Assembly: GCF_000009365.1 (NCBI RefSeq)
Contig: NC_008260.1
Span: forward strand, 2,265,001 to 2,329,000
Length of the DNA: 64,000 bases
Direction of reading: 5' to 3'
Source of the DNA: Alcanivorax borkumensis SK2
GTDB lineage: Bacteria; Pseudomonadota; Gammaproteobacteria; Pseudomonadales; Alcanivoracaceae
Under the pieces are notes generated by a model that saw nothing but the letters and a program-made list of their open reading frames with translations, was not told the DNA's origin and did not search any database. Numbering within the stretch: position 1 is the first letter of the stretch; the number at the start of each line of letters is the position of its first letter. Below, one piece after another: positions 19,939 through 29,459 of this stretch. A program made the position numbers and the translations under genes.

Positions 19939-20592
19939 TTACCGATTATTCACTCGAACAAAGTACGCCATGTGCAAGGCATGAAATAAGCGTCGTTGGG
20001 CCACATCCTTTGCCAGAATAAACCCCAACGGCTCAAGCATGGATTTTAGCTCCCTGAGAGTTGTATGATTTTGTCGGCTACTATGGCCGGTGAGACGATA
20101 TTTTAACCAGCGTTTCACTCCTGTATACGACCAAGGAGACAGATAGGAAATCAATAAGTGCTGGTCACTCACCCGAGCCAGTTCCCGCAATAACTTTTCA
20201 CGAACCCTGGCATCTGAAAAGTGATGGATCAAGCGAAAACAGACCACCAATTTGAATGCTCTTCGCTCCCAAGGCATGGAAAAAATATCGCCTTCTTTTA
20301 CCTCAACTGAAAAACCATTATCGATAAGCAATTGCCGGGTAAAATCTACGGCCGCCGCCCCCATATCTATAGCTGACACCTGCCAGCCCTGCTGGGCCAT
20401 CCAGAGGCTAAGGCGTCCCGCACCGCAAGGAGCATCCAGCACACAAGCCCCGGCAGGAAGCTCCGGCATAGAACGCTCTACCAGAGCCATTTCAGCAGCA
20501 TGCTTGCCCGGTTTTCTGTTGGCATATTTTAGAACGGCTTGTTCATCCATCTTGACCCGATCACGGGATATAACAGCAACATCATCAGACAT
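19939..20592 (-). CDS. Class I SAM-dependent methyltransferase
   Basis: 217 aa from the ATG at 20592 (MSDDVAVISRDRVKMDEQAV), which overlaps the upstream kinase gene by 8 bp; an in-frame ATG at 20658 lies deep inside that gene. SAM-binding motif I is CVLDAPCGAGRLSLWMAQ, motif II has AIDMGAAAVDFTRQ with the acidic ribose-binding residue, and post-motif LVVCFRLIHHFSDARVREKL follows. The substrate is not evident. Tight coupling to the kinase-like gene suggests both act on one molecule, perhaps a sugar or lipid head group. Confidence 0.85.
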   Translation of the reverse strand: MSDDVAVISRDRVKMDEQAVLKYANRKPGKHAAEMALVERSMPELPAGACVLDAPCGAGRLSLWMAQQGWQVSAIDMGAAAVDFTRQLLIDNGFSVEVKEGDIFSMPWERRAFKLVVCFRLIHHFSDARVREKLLRELARVSDQHLLISYLSPWSYTGVKRWLKYRLTGHSSRQNHTTLRELKSMLEPLGFILAKDVAQRRLFHALHMAYFVRVNNR

Positions 20593-21298
20593 TTCGAGGG
20601 TCTCTTGGTAATGAAAAAACAGGGGCATTCCGGCGTCCAGCACTCTCATACAGCTCATGCAAATGAGCTCGAATGGCTGGGGTAAGAAAATCGCTGCGAC
20701 GCAGCAATTGAGAAAAATCCGAACGGGCAGCAGCGCCCATACTCAAGCGCTTACGGAAGCGCTCAAGATCTAGCAGCATGATCTTCAACGTTACCGGATG
20801 TACCAACACATGAGCCGGGTAACAGGCGCCATGCTGCCAGCGCTGACGGTGCAACCGGCGCAGCACACGCAACAAGCGCATCATAACGATAGTCAGTTGC
20901 GTAGCGTTATGCTTGCGAGCGAATACTGCCAAATCGATATAATCCGGTGGCGCTAGAGTCACCAATATTGCAGCATCAGCTCGTTCGCCATAATAAAGAC
21001 AATCCACCACCGGAATAGCCGCAGATTTTAGGCGCTGTAACGCCAAAAATTCGTGGAAATACGTAGAGCGCTTCTGCCAAAACTGTTGGGGCAGGCGGCG
21101 ACGTTGATTCTGTTGACGCTTTACATAAACCCACTGCCCGGTATCAAGCTGATGGCGGGTCACGCCACTCCAGCCTCCACGACGATAATTCGGCGCCTCC
21201 ACCCAGTCACAGGGCAACGACCACATGGCATCAAATTCCGTCAAGGCATTGCGAGCTAACACGCTGTGCCATGACGGAGCAATAAAAGTAAGGGTCAC
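20585..21298 (-). CDS. Lipopolysaccharide/Kdo-type kinase family protein (InaA/WaaP-like)
   Basis: About 237 aa. A GTG at 21298 follows AGAGGAGG; the longer frame from 21316 would begin before that ribosome site. Protein-kinase-like fold of the Kdo/WaaP family: Lys in QWVYVKRQQNQRRR (nucleotide site), YFHEFLALQRL (Glu helix), HGACYPAHVLVH in the catalytic-loop position and IMLLDLERFRKR in the metal-binding position. InaA-like proteins of Pseudomonas are the nearest relatives. It starts the two-gene unit with the methyltransferase. Likely modifies a cell-surface sugar. Confidence 0.8.
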   Translation of the reverse strand: MTLTFIAPSWHSVLARNALTEFDAMWSLPCDWVEAPNYRRGGWSGVTRHQLDTGQWVYVKRQQNQRRRLPQQFWQKRSTYFHEFLALQRLKSAAIPVVDCLYYGERADAAILVTLAPPDYIDLAVFARKHNATQLTIVMMRLLRVLRRLHRQRWQHGACYPAHVLVHPVTLKIMLLDLERFRKRLSMGAAARSDFSQLLRRSDFLTPAIRAHLHELYESAGRRNAPVFSLPRDPRNV

Positions 21299-21445
21299 AC
21301 TGCCTCCTCTGACCAATTAACAGGCTCAACAGGAAGGCTAAAAGTAAGAGCTTAAGAGAGGCTTAATCAGGAGAAAAAATCATGGAGCGAATTCTATTTA
21401 TCTTAAATAGGCAATGTATCAGTCATTGCTGATGGCAGAAATAAA

Positions 21446-21479
21446 AGAGGCCGCGCCCAGCTCTTTGGGCGCGGCCTCT
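21446..21479 (-). terminator. Terminator of the tlpA-to-DUF2333 operon (shared hairpin family, copy 2)
   Basis: Perfect 14-bp stem AGAGGCCGCGCCCA / TGGGCGCGGCCTCT with a GCTCTT loop. On the minus strand it is followed by TTTTATTT, and it lies 69 nt after the DUF2333 stop. Confidence 0.88.
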
Positions 21480-21547
21480 ACGTTGCGTAATGGCAACAAC
21501 AATCTTCACGTCACTTCAATTATCCCATTATTAAATCTCGATTCTTC

Positions 21548-22555
21548 TTAGCCTTCCTGCAACAACTTACGCAGGTCGATCAAGGCAGCATTGGCCCGTG
21601 ATACATAGTTCGCCATCACTAGAGAATGGTTAGCTAACATGCCAAAACCATCGCCATTAAGAATCAAAGGGCTCCATATAGTTTCTTGGGTAGCCTCAAG
21701 CTCACGAACCATTTGCCGGAAACTGATGGTCGCATTTTTCTTACGAAGCACATCCGCGAAATCCACTTCCGCACCACGCATTAACTGGGTTAGTGCCCAG
21801 GTCGCACCCCGCGCTTCGTAAAAGGCATCATCAATGTCTAGCCAAGGGGTTTTAATAAAATCTTCGTCTTTCTCAGGCTTGGCCGCTACGATGGTGCCGT
21901 CCTTGTCAACATTGAGCTGGCTGCGACCAACACTCTGGCTTAGCGTCAAGCTCAAGGACCCTAGCCGATTTTGCACCTCGTTCAGCCAATAATTCAGGTT
22001 ATCCGCCCGGGCATAGAATTTACCGTCATTTTCATTGGCATCTGTGAGGCGATCCAAGTAACGCTCTAGCGCCTTGATGCCCCGGCGATACTCACTTTCA
22101 GTGGCCGGCATGGCCCAGCTTTGCGCATCAAAATTGAATTGAGGCTCAGCAATAGCCAGGTCCTTGTCTTCCTGACTCTGGGACTGGGAACGGCTCATAT
22201 CCCGGCGTAATACGCGGCTAAAATCACGCACCTGTACCAGCACGCCATATTCCCAGGCTGGCATATTATCCAGCCACAGGCGGTGCGGAAGGATGTCATT
22301 GGTCAGGTAGCCGCCAGGCTTAGTCAAGAGTGTATCGGCCACGAAAATCAGCTCTCGAGTGGTAGTTTCGCCCCGAACCACATCCGCTTTCGGCGTTACC
22401 TTCTTCAGCTCCGGCTCTTGGCTCCAGTACCAACCAAGCAAAATATCCACCAGTAGCAACAAGCCGAGCAACCAAAGCACCCCTTTCCATATTCGGTTAT
22501 TACGGGGGTCCAGCATGGCATCCCCCAGTTTTTCATTAAATTTATCGTTACTCAT
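21548..22555 (-). CDS. DUF2333 family membrane-anchored protein
   Basis: 335 aa from the ATG at 22555 (MSNDKFNEKLGDAMLD), with GGGAG 5 nt upstream; the longer reading frame overlaps the kinase gene and is not supported. One membrane segment (residues about 26-45, WKGVLWLLGLLLLVDILLGW) and a large, mostly helical outer domain with VVRGETTTRELIFVADTLLT and LTKPGGYLTNDILPH. I recognise it as the DUF2333 family, whose function is unknown. It is the last gene of the operon, 25 bp after the sensor kinase. Confidence 0.82.
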   Translation of the reverse strand: MSNDKFNEKLGDAMLDPRNNRIWKGVLWLLGLLLLVDILLGWYWSQEPELKKVTPKADVVRGETTTRELIFVADTLLTKPGGYLTNDILPHRLWLDNMPAWEYGVLVQVRDFSRVLRRDMSRSQSQSQEDKDLAIAEPQFNFDAQSWAMPATESEYRRGIKALERYLDRLTDANENDGKFYARADNLNYWLNEVQNRLGSLSLTLSQSVGRSQLNVDKDGTIVAAKPEKDEDFIKTPWLDIDDAFYEARGATWALTQLMRGAEVDFADVLRKKNATISFRQMVRELEATQETIWSPLILNGDGFGMLANHSLVMANYVSRANAALIDLRKLLQEG

Positions 22556-22580
22556 TATCACTCCCAACATCGGCACACCA

Positions 22581-23924
22581 CTACGACAGCGTAGGCTCTT
22601 CATTAGCGGCAGGGAGAACAACAATAGCAGCTGCAGGAGAGCTCGCACACCGTTTGCGATAAGCCAAGCTACCGCCATAAAGGCTGAGGATGCCATTGAC
22701 AATAGATAGACCCAATCCCGCGCCATCTGAATCGCAATGCCCGCGGCTGAAGCGTTCACTGTAGCGCTGCCACTGCTCTAGCCTCAGCCCTTCACCGCTA
22801 TCGTAGACCTCGATACGGATTTGACCTTCTCTTTTCTCAGCGTTCACTCCGATAACCCCCGGGGGGGTATAGCGGCAAGCATTATCGACCAAGTTCCGTA
22901 ACACCAGATGCAGAGCTTCCTCGGGGACAGCAACCCATAGAGAATGATCAAGGCGCAATTCCAGATGCTGCTCAAAACGATCGCCTAGCGGCACCAGTGA
23001 CGCCAGGGTATCCCGTGCCACCGGCAGAATATCAGCACGAGCATTCTTTTTCGGCGGCCCCATGGCAGGGTCCAAACGCGCCAGCACCAGCAATTGTTCG
23101 AGCATCCGTTCGGCACGACCCACTGCCTCCTGCAGCCCTTGTAGGGACTCTTCGCGCTGCTGCGGATCCGGCAGTGAGCGAGCGTTATCTGCATGCAGCC
23201 GCAACACCATCAATAATGTTCGCAATTCATGCGCAGCATCTGCCGTAAAACGCTTTTCACGCTCCATACCCGCCTCCAGTCGCAGCAAGAGCTCATTGAT
23301 GGCGGCCTTCACAGGTTCCAGTTCACACACCTGCTTACCGATGGAGAGCGGAGTCAGATTATCCGGAGAACGTTGGCTCACGGATTGAATAAGATCGGAG
23401 AGTGGCGAGAGTCCAAAACGAATGGCCAGCCATACTAGCAACACAACAAAAGGCACACTGATCAGGTAGGGAGCCACCAATGCTCCTGCCACATTTCTGA
23501 CCATGGATTGACGGGCGTAATCACTTTCCGCCAGGATCAACCAGCGATCATTGGTCATTGGCAACGAATAAGCATGCCAGCCGTTGATTTCTGCATAATG
23601 AGGACGTGGATTGAGGGCGATCAAAGGTGAGATTGGTGACCCTTCACTAGCAGTAACCAGCTTGCCGTCCTGCCATAACTGGTAGATGAAATAGCGTAGG
23701 TAGCGAGACTCTTCGGAGTCCAGCGCTGACAGGGACGCATTGGGGGGATAACCATCCCGCCAAAAACCGGCCAGCAGACGTGCACTTTGCACCAGCTCTG
23801 CGTCGTATTGTTCATCCAGCTCATGATAGAGAGTGCGATAAGTCAAAAAGACCAATAAGACCCCGCCACCGGCGATCACCAGCAACAGTGATACAACCAG
23901 AAAGCGACGAATGGAAAAAATCAT
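22581..23924 (-). CDS. Sensor histidine kinase (QseC/PmrB-like)
   Basis: 447 aa. Two membrane segments (about 9-28 and 155-175) flank a periplasmic domain of about 125 residues. The HisKA H-box reads DAAHELRTLLMVLRLHADNA; the usual Pro after HELRT is Leu. ATPase motifs are intact: LVLRNLVDNACRYTPPG (N), DSGEGL (G1) and GAGLGLSIV (G2). The start overlaps the regulator's stop (ATGA). It most likely phosphorylates the adjacent OmpR-type regulator. The signal is unknown; relatives respond to metals, iron, cationic peptides or quinone-linked cues. Confidence 0.9.
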   Translation of the reverse strand: MIFSIRRFLVVSLLLVIAGGGVLLVFLTYRTLYHELDEQYDAELVQSARLLAGFWRDGYPPNASLSALDSEESRYLRYFIYQLWQDGKLVTASEGSPISPLIALNPRPHYAEINGWHAYSLPMTNDRWLILAESDYARQSMVRNVAGALVAPYLISVPFVVLLVWLAIRFGLSPLSDLIQSVSQRSPDNLTPLSIGKQVCELEPVKAAINELLLRLEAGMEREKRFTADAAHELRTLLMVLRLHADNARSLPDPQQREESLQGLQEAVGRAERMLEQLLVLARLDPAMGPPKKNARADILPVARDTLASLVPLGDRFEQHLELRLDHSLWVAVPEEALHLVLRNLVDNACRYTPPGVIGVNAEKREGQIRIEVYDSGEGLRLEQWQRYSERFSRGHCDSDGAGLGLSIVNGILSLYGGSLAYRKRCASSPAAAIVVLPAANEEPTLS

Positions 23925-24586
23925 TCCATAGTTCCCTGCAGGCTGTAGCCGACACCACGCACAGTCCGAATCAAGTCGCTTCCCAACTTTTTACGCAAAT
24001 GATGTATGTGGACTTCCAGTGCGTTGCTTTCTACATCCTCATTCCAGCCATACAACCCACCCTCCAGTTGATCTCTGGTGAGAACTCGACCCCGATGGCG
24101 CAACAGCTGCATCAACAGGCTCATCTCCCGCCGCGACAGATTTACCAGCTCGCCGCGACGAGTGACGATAAAACGCACAGGATCAATCTCCAGCTCACCG
24201 AGATGAAGCGTCTCTGAGCCAGGCGGTTCACGACGCCGTAATCGGGCACGAATCCGCGCAATCATCTCCACAGCGGAGAACGGTTTCACCAGATAATCAT
24301 CGGCGCCACAATCCAAGCCCCCGATGCGGTCTTCCAGTGCATCTCTGGCACTAATAATGATTACCGGGATCTGTTTGTCCTTTTGCCGCAAGATTTTCAA
24401 GGCATCAATACCATCCAGCCCGGGCAGTCCCAGATCCAGCAACACCAGTTGAAAACCTCCGCCCTCCAGAGCCGGCATCAACAGATCACCCCGATCGATA
24501 TGATCCACCGTATAGCCTTCAGCCCGGAGCGCACGTTGCAGGCCATCTGCTAGCAGCACATCATTCTCAACCAGCAATAGGCGCAT
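23921..24586 (-). CDS. OmpR-family response regulator (QseB/PmrA-like)
   Basis: 221 aa from the ATG at 24586 (MRLLLVENDVLLADGLQRAL); a second ATG sits just before it. Receiver: phospho-acceptor Asp in LVLLDLGLPGLDG and Lys in YLVKPFSAVEM. Winged-helix DNA-binding domain: VNLSRREMSLLMQLLRHRGR, and the end DLIRTVRGVGYSLQGTME. It overlaps the end of apbE by 20 bp. A CTTAA direct repeat of the kind this subfamily binds lies upstream of the operon's first gene. Confidence 0.92.
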   Translation of the reverse strand: MRLLLVENDVLLADGLQRALRAEGYTVDHIDRGDLLMPALEGGGFQLVLLDLGLPGLDGIDALKILRQKDKQIPVIIISARDALEDRIGGLDCGADDYLVKPFSAVEMIARIRARLRRREPPGSETLHLGELEIDPVRFIVTRRGELVNLSRREMSLLMQLLRHRGRVLTRDQLEGGLYGWNEDVESNALEVHIHHLRKKLGSDLIRTVRGVGYSLQGTME

Positions 24587-25472
24587 CATTCCCCCATTGA
24601 ATCCAATATTGTACACCTGCCCCTCGCAACAGGGTTTCAGCGTCTTTTCCCTGAAGCAGAGCAAGCGTAGACAACAGACCAGCCTGAGTACATTGGCGCC
24701 CATATACGGTAACAGCACGAGGCGCACCGGATACCGGCCAGCCACTGCGCGGATCCAGCACATGGCTATAACGGACACCATCACGAAGTAAAAAACGGCG
24801 GCTATCACCGCTAGTCGCCAGCGCACCGGTGGTGAACTGCAACTGCCCGGCAACAGGCTTGGCTGTACCCTCCATACCCACCTGCCAGGGTGCCTGCGCA
24901 GCACGCGCGACTAGGTCACCCCCAAAATTCACCAGTACATCCGCATCGGTAAATTGGCCGGCCAATTGAAAGGCACTGTCCACTGCATATTCTTTACCAA
25001 TGCCACCTAAATCCAGTTCCATCCCCGCCTGTAAGCGAATTTTTCCTGGCTGCCGTTCGACCTTGTTCCAACCCACCAATGATAATAAGGCGTCAACCTG
25101 CTCAGGTTTCGGTAACCGATTAGAACCATCAAAGTGCCAGGCACGTCGTAATACGCCCGAAGTGATGTCAAAAGCACCGTCACTGAGCTGCCAACATTGA
25201 CCGGCGAAATCAAGTAACCGGGCGCTCTCATCATCAATATCCACCCAGCGCCCATCTCCAGCATTGATGGCCGCGATCAAATTGTCTTGCCGAAAACGGG
25301 AGTATTTTCTTTCGATTCGCCAGGCCTCCTCGGTCACACACTCAAACAGTGCCAGTGCCTGGCTTTTACTGACTCCGCGCACCAAACATTCACAAGGACT
25401 TGCCATGGCAGAAAAACGGCCGCGCCAAAGGGCGCCGTCCTGTTCCAGGGTAAATGCTTTCCCCTGTGTCAT
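24567..25472 (-). CDS. apbE: FAD:protein FMN transferase (ApbE)
   Basis: 301 aa. Attaches FMN covalently, through a phosphoester bond, to a Thr/Ser of extracytoplasmic target proteins, or acts in FAD hydrolysis. Family motifs: ERKYSRFRQDNLIAAINAG, LSDGAFDITSGVLRRAWHF, the flavin/metal site MELDLGGIGKEYAVD and VNFGGDLVA, then RYSHVLDPRSGWPVSG. No clear signal peptide is present, unlike exported ApbE proteins, which suggests a cytoplasmic location or a missed start. It sits 20 bp after the DUF3570 gene and overlaps the response regulator. No classical flavinylation target (NqrB/C, RnfG, FMN-bind) is visible in the window. Confidence 0.88.
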   Translation of the reverse strand: MTQGKAFTLEQDGALWRGRFSAMASPCECLVRGVSKSQALALFECVTEEAWRIERKYSRFRQDNLIAAINAGDGRWVDIDDESARLLDFAGQCWQLSDGAFDITSGVLRRAWHFDGSNRLPKPEQVDALLSLVGWNKVERQPGKIRLQAGMELDLGGIGKEYAVDSAFQLAGQFTDADVLVNFGGDLVARAAQAPWQVGMEGTAKPVAGQLQFTTGALATSGDSRRFLLRDGVRYSHVLDPRSGWPVSGAPRAVTVYGRQCTQAGLLSTLALLQGKDAETLLRGAGVQYWIQWGNDAPIAG

Positions 25473-25491
25473 AGAGACTCCACCGCAACGA

Positions 25492-26747
25492 CTACCAGTA
25501 GAATGTATACCCGACCTGCGTGATCAGTGCATCGAGTTCCGAAGCATCACTGTCGCCGCTCTGCTGGAAACTTTCTACCCGGAAACTCCATTGCTGGTTG
25601 TTTTTCCATTGCTTGCCAAGCTTGACGCCATAGGTGGTATCAGTGAGATTCCCCAGCCGGTAATCCGCCGATACTTCATCCAACGTATTCAGATCTGCAG
25701 CGCTAACCGATTCACGGTAAAAATCAGCTTCGCCCTGCTCATACCAACGCACATGGGGTTGCAGAAACCAGCCATTGTCAAACTGAAAGCGATATTTCAC
25801 ATCCAGAGTATGTGATGTAATGCCCCAGTCGTCAGACATAAAACGATACCCCACCGCCAACACATCGCGGTTGAAGTGATAACGGTTCTCCCAGTAAAGC
25901 GCATTCTTGGTGCGCGAATCGGGGCGCAACTCGAAAATATGGGCATCACCCACGCCAATATCTGCTGCACCAAAGCTTTCCGCTTCCAGCGGATCCCCAT
26001 TAGCATCTACTACCGTGACAATCTTGTAAGGGTCTGTCTGGTAACCGTCCGATATCGACACGCTGTAATTGAGTTGCATCAGCCAGTTACGGTTGATCAC
26101 CTGGGTAATCCAAACAACAGATCATTTATAGTTCGATCTTCAGTGCCGTCATTTTTTTGTTGATTACTCTGGAACGTCAAACCAATCGGTACACCGCCCA
26201 CCGGGTCTATGGTGTCCGCCTCATGGGCTAGGCCGAATGTGAGCGTGGTGTTTTTATTGTTCAAATCCCATAAGAGTCCAGCATTTAAGCCCAAAGAAGT
26301 AAAATCATATTCATTGGAGAAATTCATCCCCGCCGTCCATCGCATAGTCCGGCTAAATGGGCGGGTATACTGCATGTTTGCGGCAACACGCGTGTCCTTG
26401 AAGGAGTCATCCAACGGCACCTCATTGGTGGCCTGATATTCCTGTGAACCAGACGGGGAAGTAAACGTCTGCGGCTTATCCGATTTGATCGCCCCGTTAT
26501 GGGATGCACCAGTTAACGAATCCAGCGTCAGTTTCAGTTCAAGCTCGCTGTCATCACCAAACTGTTTCTTGCCGCGAACCACTGGCTCCACCGCCGTGAC
26601 ACGATCTTGCTCCGCGTAATACAACACGGCGGAATCAAATTGCCAGGCATCATCTGCGGGCTGTGCCTGTACCGGCTGGCCCAGCAGAGCACAGGTCGCA
26701 GCGGCCAGGCCACTCCCAATCGTCTTCCCATCCAGTTTTTTTTTCAT
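25492..26747 (-). pseudogene. DUF3570 outer-membrane-like protein, frameshifted
   Basis: Two frames together make one DUF3570 protein of about 420 aa. The first (26747 down to 26097, 216 aa) begins MKKKLDGKTIGSGLAAATCA, has a signal peptide ending PVQAQ and stops early after DLLFGLPR. The second (26100 down to 25492, 202 aa) resumes at INRNWLMQLNYSVSISDGYQ and ends QVGYTFYW, an outer-membrane-barrel-like terminal aromatic. One missing base at about 26107-26109 explains the break: restoring it gives LLFG-x-TQVINRNW. The downstream frame begins with a GTG overlapping the stop (GTGA), so re-initiation is conceivable. Alternatives are a sequencing error or a true pseudogene. Confidence 0.82.
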
Positions 26748-26757
26748 TACGCCTTCC

Positions 26758-26988
26758 TCAATTACAGCCACAGCCACCGCCACCAAATCCACGCCCACCG
26801 CTGGAGGCTTCCTTGCTAAAATAGATGTGATCATCCAGCGCATCATCGAGACCATCCGCAGCACCCATCGTCATTACTGGTTTGGCCAACAAATCACGCT
26901 CCCAGGGTTGCACCCCCAGGTTCTGGCACCCGGACACACAGCCCACAGTGATCAGAAACACGGGTATTCCCAACGCAAATTTCATCAT
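26758..26988 (-). CDS. Small DUF4266 lipoprotein with GGGGCGCN C-terminus
   Basis: 76 aa. Signal with lipobox-like cysteines (ITVGCVSGC, about residues 17-21), the family-like core QPWERDLLAKPVMTM, then HIYFSKEASSGGRG and the tail FGGGGCGCN with two cysteines. The start is supported by GGAGGAG before ATGATG and overlaps the stop of the thioredoxin gene. I recognise it as DUF4266, a family that usually accompanies DUF3570. The glycine-cysteine tail could bind a metal or be a modification site; no function is established to my knowledge. Confidence 0.82.
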   Translation of the reverse strand: MMKFALGIPVFLITVGCVSGCQNLGVQPWERDLLAKPVMTMGAADGLDDALDDHIYFSKEASSGGRGFGGGGCGCN

Positions 26989-27428
26989 TGCTCCTCCAGC
27001 AGCTGGACGATTTCTTGCTCGTAGGCGTCCTTATTTGTTTCCATAAAACCGATATGACGGGCTAGCGCGTTCCCGCGCTCATCCATCAGCACGGCACTGG
27101 GCATCCCTTGAAGCTGATAGCGGCTTGCCAGCTCCCCTTGTGGGTCAAACACCAACGGGAAAGTGGCCGGGTAATTGGCCAGAAACTTCTCTGCATCCTC
27201 TTTGCGCAGGTCCAAATTCACACCGATGATGGTGAACCCACGATCTCCATATTTCGCCTGCATCCGATTCAGCCAAGGAAACGAGCGCCGGCAAGGCACG
27301 CACCAGCTGGCCCAAAAGTCTACGTAAATGACTTTTGCTTCCCCGACCTGCTCGGGGGAAAATGGCAACGGTTCCGCATGAGCCAGCCAGGGGATGACCA
27401 GCAGGGCAAGCACCCGTAGAAAGCGCAT
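26985..27428 (-). CDS. TlpA/ResA-type periplasmic thioredoxin
   Basis: 147 aa with signal peptide (MRFLRVLALLVIPWLAHA) and one thioredoxin domain with active site FWASWCVPCRRSFPWL. The cis-Pro loop is LQGMPSAVLMD. Such proteins reduce disulfides in the periplasm for metal or haem insertion. First gene of the operon; its stop overlaps the DUF4266 start, suggesting that the thioredoxin acts on the DUF4266 cysteines. DsbD, encoded divergently, could supply its electrons. Confidence 0.9.
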   Translation of the reverse strand: MRFLRVLALLVIPWLAHAEPLPFSPEQVGEAKVIYVDFWASWCVPCRRSFPWLNRMQAKYGDRGFTIIGVNLDLRKEDAEKFLANYPATFPLVFDPQGELASRYQLQGMPSAVLMDERGNALARHIGFMETNKDAYEQEIVQLLEEQ

Positions 27429-27471
27429 AGGCTTCTCCTTGATATTGAGACCACAGCCTCCTACCGGCGCC

Positions 27472-27499
27472 TTAAAGTAACCTTAAGGCACTGTTAATA
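27472..27499. promoter_or_regulatory. Three-fold TTAA direct repeat, candidate QseB/PmrA-type operator
   Basis: CTTAAA (27472), CTTAAG (27483) and GTTAAT (27494) are spaced by exactly 11 bp, one helical turn. OmpR-family regulators of the PmrA/QseB group are known to bind CTTAA-type hexamers with this period. It lies in the 150-bp region between the divergent tlpA and dsbD starts, so either could be controlled by the regulator encoded in the operon. Confidence 0.6.
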
Positions 27500-27578
27500 A
27501 TCTGCCCTGAAACTTATCGGCTATCCTGGCATCCAAGCGATGCCACCATTTTTGGGTTCGGGGTTTGAGGAGAAAGGA

Positions 27579-29459
27579 ATGCATACAAGCTGGCAACGAC
27601 TGGGGCTTGCTCTATTAATGCTATTTACAGTGTCCACAGCCATTGCGCAGGATCTATTCGGCGACCAAGAACGCCTGCCCACCGTGGATGAAGCCATTCA
27701 GCTAGTACCTGATGCCGACTGGGACAACCAGCAACTGCGACTGGATTTCGAGCTGATCGATGATGTTTATCTCTATCAACACCGTTTCGGGTTCACCCTA
27801 CGTGACACCAACGGCAATGTGATTAACGACTTTGCCGAACTGATACTGCCCCCCGGGAAGCCCAAAACCGACGAGATATTCGGTGATGTAGAAGTCTATT
27901 TCGACCGTTTGAAGTTCTCGCTTCCTTTGAATAGCGTGCCGCTAGTGGATACCGAACTGGAAGTACGCTATCAAGGCTGCATTGAAGATACTCTCTGCTA
28001 CCCGCCCACCCGCAAAGTGTTTGCATTCGACAATCCGCAACCGGCAAAAAAGCCCATGGCCGCGGTGCCACCCGCGGCCACTGACTCCACCGCCGGCCCG
28101 GGTTTTCTCGATACACTACGGTCTGAGGACGCCAACGCCTTCAACCAGTGGATGAACGAACAACCCCTTGGTTTAATCATCGGCCTCTTCTTTGTGGGCG
28201 GGCTGCTGCTGGCCTTTACCCCCTGCGTGTTTCCCATGGTCCCCATTCTCTCCGGTATCATTGCCGGCGAGAAAGAGCCCAGCGCCACACGGGGCTTTAC
28301 TCTCAGTGTCAGCTATGTGTTGGGTATGGCCGTGCCGTACACTTTGGCAGGCTTATTGGTGGCACTTTTTGGCGCCGGCCTGAACCTGCAATTCATGCTG
28401 CAACAACCCGCGGCCATCATTACTTCAGTAGCGGTATTTGTCGTACTGGCCCTGTCCATGTTTGGTCTGTATGAACTGCAGCTACCTGCGGCCTTGCGTA
28501 ACAAGCTCCATCAACCTGGCCAAGAAGCCCGCGGCAGCCTGATCGGCGCCGCCATCATGGGCACCATTTCGGCCTTGGTCGTCTCCCCTTGTGTTACCCC
28601 CATCCTAGCCGGCGCGTTGATCTATGTTGCCGCTAGTGGCGACGCGGCCACCGGCGCGGCTTCCCTGTTCGCCCTATCGATTGGCATGGGCCTACCATTG
28701 ATTATCTTTGGCACCGGTGGCGGCAGCTTGCTTCCCCGTGCTGGCATGTGGATGGAAGAGATCAAACGGTTCTTCGGCGTAGTGATGCTAGGCGTCGCCA
28801 TCTGGCTGCTGGACCGCATCATCAGTGACACTATTACCCTTGGCCTCTATGGCTTGTTGTTAACCGTGTATGGCATCCAGCTGGGGGCATTGGAGCCTGC
28901 CGGTGAAGGCGCTGCCCGGCTCAAGCGGGGCTTGGCTCTGGTACTGGCTCTGTACGGGGCGGTGATGATTGTCGGCGCCTTGAGTGGCGGCAAGGACCCT
29001 CTGCAACCGTTAGCGCAGATGAATCAGCCAGCCACGAACAACGGCCCCCTCCACGTTAGCACCCCCTCCTCCCAGCCTGGCGATCATGGTCCCTGGCAGA
29101 CCATCGTTGGCAAGGCCTCCCTGGAGCAGGCACTGGCCACGTCTCGTCAAGCCAACAAGCCCGTGCTGGTAGATTTCTTCGCTGAGTGGTGCGTGGCTTG
29201 CAAGGTCCTGGAAGAGACCACATTGAGTCACCCGGATGTGCTTAATGCCATGCTCGGCTTTGACCTCTACCGGGTGGATATCACCGAAATCAACGCCGAC
29301 AGCCAGGCCATCATGGAGCAGTACAACATTCTTGGGTTGCCGGCACTGGTGTTTTTCACCCCCATAAGCACTGAAATTCCCGATTCAAGAGTCCTCGGCG
29401 AAATGGGGCCACAACGGTTTATTGAACACCTTAACAAGCGGGTCCTGCCTAGGCTTTAA
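27579..29459 (+). CDS. dsbD: Thiol:disulfide interchange protein DsbD
   Basis: 626 aa. Moves electrons from cytoplasmic thioredoxin across the inner membrane to periplasmic thiol proteins. Signal peptide, then the N-terminal alpha domain with redox pair CIEDTLC, eight membrane segments with conserved Cys (AFTPCVFPMVPILSGI and VVSPCVTPILAGALIY), and a C-terminal thioredoxin domain with EWCVACKVLE. The ATG at 27579 is chosen because AGGAGAAAGGA precedes it; an earlier ATG at 27540 would add 13 residues before the signal. Divergent from the TlpA-like gene. Confidence 0.95.
   Translation: MHTSWQRLGLALLMLFTVSTAIAQDLFGDQERLPTVDEAIQLVPDADWDNQQLRLDFELIDDVYLYQHRFGFTLRDTNGNVINDFAELILPPGKPKTDEIFGDVEVYFDRLKFSLPLNSVPLVDTELEVRYQGCIEDTLCYPPTRKVFAFDNPQPAKKPMAAVPPAATDSTAGPGFLDTLRSEDANAFNQWMNEQPLGLIIGLFFVGGLLLAFTPCVFPMVPILSGIIAGEKEPSATRGFTLSVSYVLGMAVPYTLAGLLVALFGAGLNLQFMLQQPAAIITSVAVFVVLALSMFGLYELQLPAALRNKLHQPGQEARGSLIGAAIMGTISALVVSPCVTPILAGALIYVAASGDAATGAASLFALSIGMGLPLIIFGTGGGSLLPRAGMWMEEIKRFFGVVMLGVAIWLLDRIISDTITLGLYGLLLTVYGIQLGALEPAGEGAARLKRGLALVLALYGAVMIVGALSGGKDPLQPLAQMNQPATNNGPLHVSTPSSQPGDHGPWQTIVGKASLEQALATSRQANKPVLVDFFAEWCVACKVLEETTLSHPDVLNAMLGFDLYRVDITEINADSQAIMEQYNILGLPALVFFTPISTEIPDSRVLGEMGPQRFIEHLNKRVLPRL

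Follow-up and report, generated by a model that had tools for sequence, protein, structure and literature searches.

Introduction

The closest described relatives of the locus studied here are the DUF3570 gene clusters of Meheust et al. (2021, eLife; PMC8238504), who showed experimentally that the cognate ApbE of a DUF3570 protein from Chlorobium luteolum attaches flavin to it at two [S/T]GA[S/T] motifs. The same paper lists 285 DsbD clusters, typically carrying ApbE and DUF3570 (227), a thioredoxin-like protein (183) and DUF4266 (221), gives 316 further such clusters without DsbD, and proposes a thioredoxin/flavin hybrid fed by DsbD. Here we describe a DUF3570 locus of Alcanivorax borkumensis SK2, found in a 64,000-nucleotide stretch of its genome (NC_008260.1, positions 2,265,001 to 2,329,000; hereafter the window, in which all coordinates without a locus handle are given). 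Since the window holds every gene of that system, namely DsbD, a thioredoxin-like protein, DUF4266 with a CXC tail, ApbE, and DUF3570 with a TGAS match to the flavin mononucleotide (FMN) attachment motif, the locus is a member of the published DsbD-type DUF3570 flavinylation system and not a new one.

What the locus and its relatives add concerns where the flavin sits, where it is attached and how the genes are controlled. We propose, with even weight for and against, a DUF3570 flavinylation system that combines a thiol relay, a cytosolic ApbE, an acceptor outside the cell and control by its own PmrA/QseB-like regulator pair. A term search of the main text of PMC8238504 gave no outer-membrane barrel, signal-less ApbE or regulator for the DUF3570 system. 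Our literature searches likewise returned no earlier report of a DUF3570 outer-membrane barrel with an outside flavin, of a signal-less partner ApbE or of PmrA-type control, and did not find the conserved DUF4266 CXC tail without a predicted fold in print.

Results and discussion

Organization and conservation of the locus

The locus is a closely packed minus-strand block (27428-21548) that encodes, in order, TlpA, DUF4266, DUF3570, ApbE, a response regulator, a histidine kinase and DUF2333, and it ends at a terminator-like hairpin of 14 pairs with a T run (21446-21479, minus strand; hairpin scan). The first gene encodes a TlpA/ResA-like periplasmic thioredoxin (26985-27428; Pfam Redoxin, 8.1e-17), the second a small DUF4266 lipoprotein with the C-terminal CXC tail GGGGCGCN (26758-26988; Pfam, 7.5e-22). 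DUF3570 follows as two open reading frames (ORFs), and behind it stand an ApbE flavin transferase without a signal peptide (24567-25472; Pfam ApbE, 1.6e-59), an OmpR-type, PmrA/QseB-like response regulator (23921-24586; Pfam, NCBIfam and PDB matches) and a PmrB/QseC-like sensor histidine kinase (22581-23924; Pfam and NCBIfam matches). On the plus strand, divergent from tlpA, lies a full-length dsbD (27540-29459; NCBIfam DsbD, 1.8e-164, above cut-off), whose true start may be slightly downstream of 27540.

A scan of named genomes gave at least 80 DUF3570 loci, nearly all labelled gammaproteobacterial, and 60 of the 80 had full flanks (no less than 3.5 kb on the upstream and 4.5 kb on the downstream side). 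All of these 60 loci carried DUF4266 close to DUF3570 (within 1.5 kb), and at the same range TlpA was present in 56 and ApbE in 54; a response regulator (within 3.5 kb) was found in 23, a histidine kinase in 25 and both in 23 (the pair counted within 3.6 and 4.5 kb). Of 299 genomes sampled from the phylum, the window genome included, 20 had a DUF3570 match, whatever its type. Among 36 Alcanivoracaceae genomes, 12 relatives with the window's DUF3570 type all kept the gene order accC-accB-aroQ-dsbD / tlpA-DUF4266-DUF3570-apbE-regulator-kinase-DUF2333; the regulator of two of these relatives was read separately.

DUF2333 (21548-22555; Pfam, 9.8e-151), which stands close behind the kinase and probably starts near 22555 rather than at the ORF start at 22759, was considered as a core part and rejected: within 8 kb it accompanies DUF3570 in 4 of the 60 loci, all of them Alcanivoracaceae, and in 12 of the 12 relatives, so that the link is confined to this family.

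A first-pass annotation of the window had described a seven-gene redox operon here, and its observations are partly confirmed and its interpretation partly supported. The extent, strand, close packing and single terminator of the block hold, as do all family assignments, which Pfam recovers, and the C-terminal end of DUF4266; the split of DUF3570 and the divergent dsbD were overlooked. The annotation's reading of the set as a redox operon is upheld. Its expectations that DUF4266 and DUF3570 occur together and that the flavin transferase belongs to the set are borne out by the neighbourhood counts, since DUF3570 loci generally do have thioredoxin and apbE genes beside them; its inclusion of DUF2333 in the redox set is not. 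Its statement that no known ApbE target is present was wrong, as DUF3570 flavinylation had been shown in 2021 (PMC8238504).

DUF3570 models as an outer-membrane barrel

The two ORFs of DUF3570 each match one half of the family profile: the N-terminal half (26097-26747; Pfam profile positions 4-213) carries the signal peptide and FMN motif, the C-terminal half (25492-26100; profile positions 232-401) ends in an aromatic residue, and the frame breaks at the end of the N-terminal half. An intact DUF3570, P0002, shares 99.5% identity with the first half and 100% with the second, and is the head of a cluster of 21 sequences from 21 contigs, grouped at 90% identity. Because P0002 and the DUF3570s of all 12 Alcanivoracaceae relatives are intact, the break looks private to this assembly, either a mutation of the strain or a sequencing error; programmed frameshifting was ruled out on the same grounds. 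The two separate ORFs, each a clear half of the profile, could also mean that the frame change is real and that the rest of the cluster is being lost in this strain. The near identity of both halves to the intact protein and the open frames of the remaining operon genes argue against such decay, which we think unlikely.

We then considered the fold of the intact protein. An AlphaFold2 model of P0002 (93 sequences; mean predicted local distance difference test score (pLDDT) 88.6, predicted template modelling score 0.83) had 16 long strands. With the N-terminus taken as periplasmic, the odd loops face outward, and every long loop is among them (98-133, 198-219, 253-294 and 356-384); the even side is made of short turns, each two to five residues in length. 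Among the structural matches listed by Foldseek and by a second structural look at the model, all were outer-membrane barrels. Sequence comparison of DUF3570 with PDB entries gave no relative up to E=1. Among the 80 loci, the final residue was F or W in 69, and a hydrophobic N-terminus (score above 1.6; see below) was present in 73. The prediction thus combines an even strand number, short turns opposite long loops, a C-terminal aromatic residue and a signal peptide, and DUF3570 models as a 16-strand outer-membrane barrel.

The window protein has one strict [S/T]GA[S/T] motif, a TGAS (26502-26513, minus strand; read from sequence, motif per PMC8238504). The corresponding serine of P0002, S99, is at the start of outer loop 2, in a loop with pLDDT 90-96, which in the model would place the FMN site outside the cell. 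Several distant relatives carry a second FMN motif on the same loop.

A second type of DUF3570, found in relatives (L049 5725-6873, L050 7611-8747 and L051 7718-8878), stands after TlpA, and its FMN motif no longer contains GA (SSAS/LSAS). In L050 it lies behind genes for a hydrazine-synthase-alpha-like/propeller protein and for small outer-membrane barrels. A separate ApbE class is found roughly 10-15 kb from the second type in several genomes, and directly beside it in L051; these loci may represent a differently flavinylated or non-flavinylated sister system. A DUF3570 with a long C-terminal extension (912 residues) was also seen (L167 7766-10504).

The ApbE beside DUF3570 lacks a signal peptide

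The ApbE of the operon shares its missing signal peptide with every other ApbE found adjoining DUF3570 (67 of 67 in the 80 loci). These proteins mostly begin with a short polar stretch, followed by a core that usually reads F-x-A-M-A-S-P-C-E; in L090 and L112 the stretch before the core has no standard start codon, and its in-frame codons do not encode anything hydrophobic. Using 9-residue hydrophobicity and one threshold (1.6) for all proteins, we found values above it in 2 of 65 scored adjacent ApbEs (L076 and L130, neither signal-like), in 70 of 71 TlpAs and in 73 of 79 DUF4266 proteins. Control ApbEs of the MGT-type class, from this and related genomes, exceeded the threshold in 27 of 28 cases (30 tried, two missed by the pattern); the main test scored from the ORF start to the core, whereas the control took at most 45 residues of open frame ahead of the MGT motif, so the two tests are not identical. 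The second ApbE of the window genome belongs to this MGT-type class, has a lipoprotein-like signal and stands beside an NqrF-like gene. A wider sample of 14 further regions gave 13 readable ApbEs, all without a signal; one of the 13 (L166) shares a contig with L084.

Within the Alcanivoracaceae, this DUF3570 type occurs in 13 of the 36 genomes, each time with the matching ApbE as its neighbour; in the other 23 no ApbE match of that class was seen, bar one unclassified partial match (G032). Because ApbE is signal-less while DUF3570 has a signal-like N-terminus, the simplest reading is that FMN may be attached to DUF3570 before export. The published assay relied on co-expression in E. coli and a signal-truncation strategy, with the product mostly in the insoluble pellet (PMC8238504), and suggests that this order is chemically possible.

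Proposed thiol partners of DUF3570

TlpA has a hydrophobic N-terminus and a WASWCVPC motif, and the genome has no DsbD_TM match other than the DsbD beside it; we propose DsbD as the electron entry point. The DUF4266 tail is strikingly constant. All 79 copies found in the 80 loci end in GGCGCN, 118 of 120 close homologues end in GGGGCGCN and the other two in AGGGCGCN, and residues D52 to N76 are nearly invariant in an alignment of 38 sequences; one copy of the wider sample (L167) ends in GCGCY. The structural model of DUF4266 has no confident fold (pLDDT 58), with residues 56-76 below 50 and the tail near 40. Because the tail is conserved yet has no predicted fold of its own, it may fold on a partner protein, most obviously the barrel.

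Small size, secretion and a conserved tail would fit DUF4266 as the flavin-modified component, an option that the first-pass annotation named alongside the DUF3570 barrel. Because DUF4266 has no [S/T]GA[S/T] motif, and because DUF3570 is the demonstrated substrate (PMC8238504), we consider DUF4266 a most improbable flavin carrier; the DUF3570 barrel is the likely one.

Two arrangements around the core thiol genes were noted. The TlpA-DUF4266-DUF3570 core stands directly behind DUF1800/DUF1501 or cytochrome-DUF1592/DUF1501 genes in L044 (4523-7989) and L047 (4823-8436), and in L174 (8581-11355) the TlpA domain is fused to a large Ig-like protein (924 residues).

A PmrA-type repeat upstream of tlpA

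The regulator pair resembles PmrA/PmrB and QseB/QseC. For the regulator, NCBIfam gave PmrA at 1.9e-66 and QseB at 4.7e-66 (223.8 against a cut-off of 330 bits and 222.7 against 345, both below equivalog level), and the best PDB match was BasR (about 1e-49); for the kinase, PmrB (2.9e-50) and QseC (3.3e-50) also remained below cut-off. A PmrA box, as described, consists of the half-sites CTTAAG and XTTAAT with a spacer of five bases (PMC3973317), and upstream of tlpA we found CTTAAG-N5-TTTAAG (27471-27487, minus strand; pattern search). The window has two copies of the exact pattern YTTAAK-N5-YTTAAK, where 0.07 would be expected, the second copy (21351-21367, plus strand; pattern search) being upstream of a gene for a Kdo/WaaP-family lipopolysaccharide (LPS) kinase (20585-21316, minus strand; Pfam Kdo, 4.4e-27). 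In the genome it occurs three times, always upstream of envelope genes: tlpA, the LPS kinase gene and a DUF3413-sulfatase gene, the last at G000:C1:2586537 (L179).

The repeat keeps its place across loci. In all 12 Alcanivoracaceae relatives the 110 bp upstream of tlpA contain YTTAA-N6-YTTAA; in seven the position is -58 or -59, and in two the sequence fits in the reverse reading only. Across the sample, 41 of 79 loci (one of the 80 has no usable start) had such a box between -150 and +20 of tlpA (or DUF4266). Over 200 rounds, shuffled sequences averaged 0.87 and never exceeded 4, and of the other ORFs in the same loci 10 of 898 had a box. Loci with an adjacent regulator pair had the box in 23 of 26 cases, those without in 18 of 53, and the regulators of the three box-less loci among the 26 were 35-42% identical only. 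From its sequence and position, the repeat at 27471-27487 is likely to be the operator of the operon, and these associations suggest that the operon is controlled by its own PmrA/QseB-like pair through the box, although which regulator reads it is our inference. The LPS kinase gene is a possible second target of the regulator.

The LPS kinase gene forms a pair with a methyltransferase gene (19939-21316) just past the operon terminator, with the PmrA-type box in front; no such pair was seen beside the cluster of the 12 relatives. An ExxE sequence in the sensor of the histidine kinase was not used as evidence of iron sensing; it is near the first membrane helix here and is absent or elsewhere in several relatives. 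A scan for sigma-70 promoters found three against a mean of 5.0 in shuffles, not above chance, and Rfam at gathering thresholds gave no match between 19000 and 31000.

A model for the DUF3570 system

In the mechanism that we favour, DsbD would hand cytosolic electrons to the periplasmic thioredoxin TlpA, and TlpA would reduce the C-terminal CXC of the lipoprotein DUF4266. The DUF4266 tail would dock into the DUF3570 barrel and there reduce the FMN covalently bound to the Ser/Thr of TGAS in extracellular loop 2, from which electrons could pass to an acceptor on the cell surface or beyond it; ferric iron or another metal is the probable acceptor. The dedicated cytosolic ApbE would attach the FMN before export and outer-membrane assembly of DUF3570, and the PmrA/QseB-like pair would act through the box upstream of tlpA. 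Electron route and direction, tail docking, acceptor, pre-export flavinylation and the regulator reading the box are all inferred. A more specific version, in which DUF3570 is a trans-outer-membrane flavin conduit, fed by a thiol relay, flavinylated before Sec so that the chain would cross the membrane unfolded and with its flavin on, and placed under a PmrA-type envelope and metal sensor together with LPS-modifying genes, is possible but doubtful.

Several observations weigh against this mechanism. DUF3570 is broken in this assembly, so the strain may be without the function. The strict [S/T]GA[S/T] motif is missing from 10 of the 80 loci and, among 120 close homologues, from 41, the inspected cases having TGSS or TGNS in its place. 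The membrane topology of DUF3570 was taken from strand parity, and signal peptides were called from hydrophobicity. DsbD is close to DUF3570 in only 17 of the 60 loci and, being the sole DsbD of the genome, may mainly serve other thiol proteins. Genome-wide, exact boxes number 3 against 5 for a reversed-pattern control and relaxed boxes 5 against 7; because this count is not above control, the argument from the box rests on position and conservation. The loci are, moreover, related to one another, so that the p value of the box count serves as a guide only, and two other regulators of the genome (47% and 43% identical) could read the same box. A signal peptide is present in the ApbE that adjoins the sister-type DUF3570 of L051, so the rule of a signal-less ApbE applies to the window's DUF3570 type only. 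The sample for that rule consists of Pseudomonadota, and a plasmid search for other phyla gave three Vibrio records only, which limits the ApbE result to Pseudomonadota.

Finally, 6 of the 60 full-flank loci have no ApbE nearby, and five of their six DUF3570s keep the strict motif. This, and the second ApbE of the genome with its lipoprotein-like signal, would fit a secreted ApbE from elsewhere in the genome that flavinylates DUF3570 in the periplasm while the cytosolic ApbE serves another target. We regard such an arrangement as improbable, given the ApbE within 1.5 kb of DUF3570 in the great majority of loci (54 of 60), the matching ApbE beside DUF3570 in 13 of the 13 Alcanivoracaceae genomes with this type and the published cognate pair that worked (PMC8238504).

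Metal genes near DUF3570

A cupredoxin-type gene and two accompanying genes recur in 6 of the 80 loci: L072 (12166-13997), L064, L078, L083, L101 and L103. The cupredoxin domain (PF13473) is confirmed by Pfam in L072 only, the other five being assigned by clustering; of the accompanying genes, one is membrane-protein-like without a Pfam match and the other a third unknown. An FTR1-like reading of the 258-267-residue gene beside the cupredoxin was dropped, as it had no Pfam match. Genes for MbnP and a MauG-type cytochrome stand beside L090. PmrA/PmrB responds to ferric iron, and the regulator here is PmrA-like. Such neighbours, with the VIT1 iron transporters reported in 25 DUF3570 clusters (PMC8238504), would suit a role in metal handling, in which DsbD and TlpA keep the DUF4266 CXC reduced for binding copper or iron, the barrel is a channel for metal or chelate, and FMN reduces the metal locally during uptake. 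Metal genes adjoin only a minority of loci, and the CXC could be a redox or a ligand motif, between which sequence cannot discriminate; we judge metal handling rather unlikely, if less so than decay of the cluster.

Comparison with known systems

Beyond the genes that it shares with the system of Meheust et al., the window adds the PmrA/QseB-like pair and DUF2333, and unlike the Chlorobium luteolum protein its DUF3570 has one strict FMN motif instead of two and a gene that is split in the assembly. As in NqrC/RnfG flavinylation, ApbE would move FMN from flavin adenine dinucleotide to a Ser/Thr of an extracytosolic protein; there, however, ApbE is a periplasmic lipoprotein (2025 review, PMC12052999), and here it has no signal peptide. 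According to that review, secretion seems to be the rule for most ApbEs, and the cytosolic ones that it names serve fumarate reductases. The Klebsiella enzyme also lacks a signal peptide (PMC12052999), but its substrate is a soluble fumarate reductase, whereas DUF3570 has a signal-peptide-like N-terminus and barrel features. If our reading is correct, a cytosolic flavin transferase serves an exported barrel, and the export machinery handles a flavinylated chain.

PmrA/PmrB and QseB/QseC give the best NCBIfam matches of the regulator pair and BasR the best PDB match, and the CTTAAG-N5-TTAA box is as for PmrA (PMC3973317). In contrast to those systems, the window proteins score below equivalog cut-offs. 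The PmrA-type box is a lead to what switches the system on; together with the barrel carrying an outside flavin and the signal-less ApbE, such control makes the function of the system testable.

The main known route for exporting electrons across outer membranes is the haem porin-cytochrome complex, of which MtrCAB is an example. As in those conduits, electrons would cross the outer membrane through a barrel; unlike in them, flavin and thiols would replace the haems, and the core set has no cytochrome. If this is true, flavin-and-thiol electron export in many Gammaproteobacteria would be a solution separate from haem conduits.

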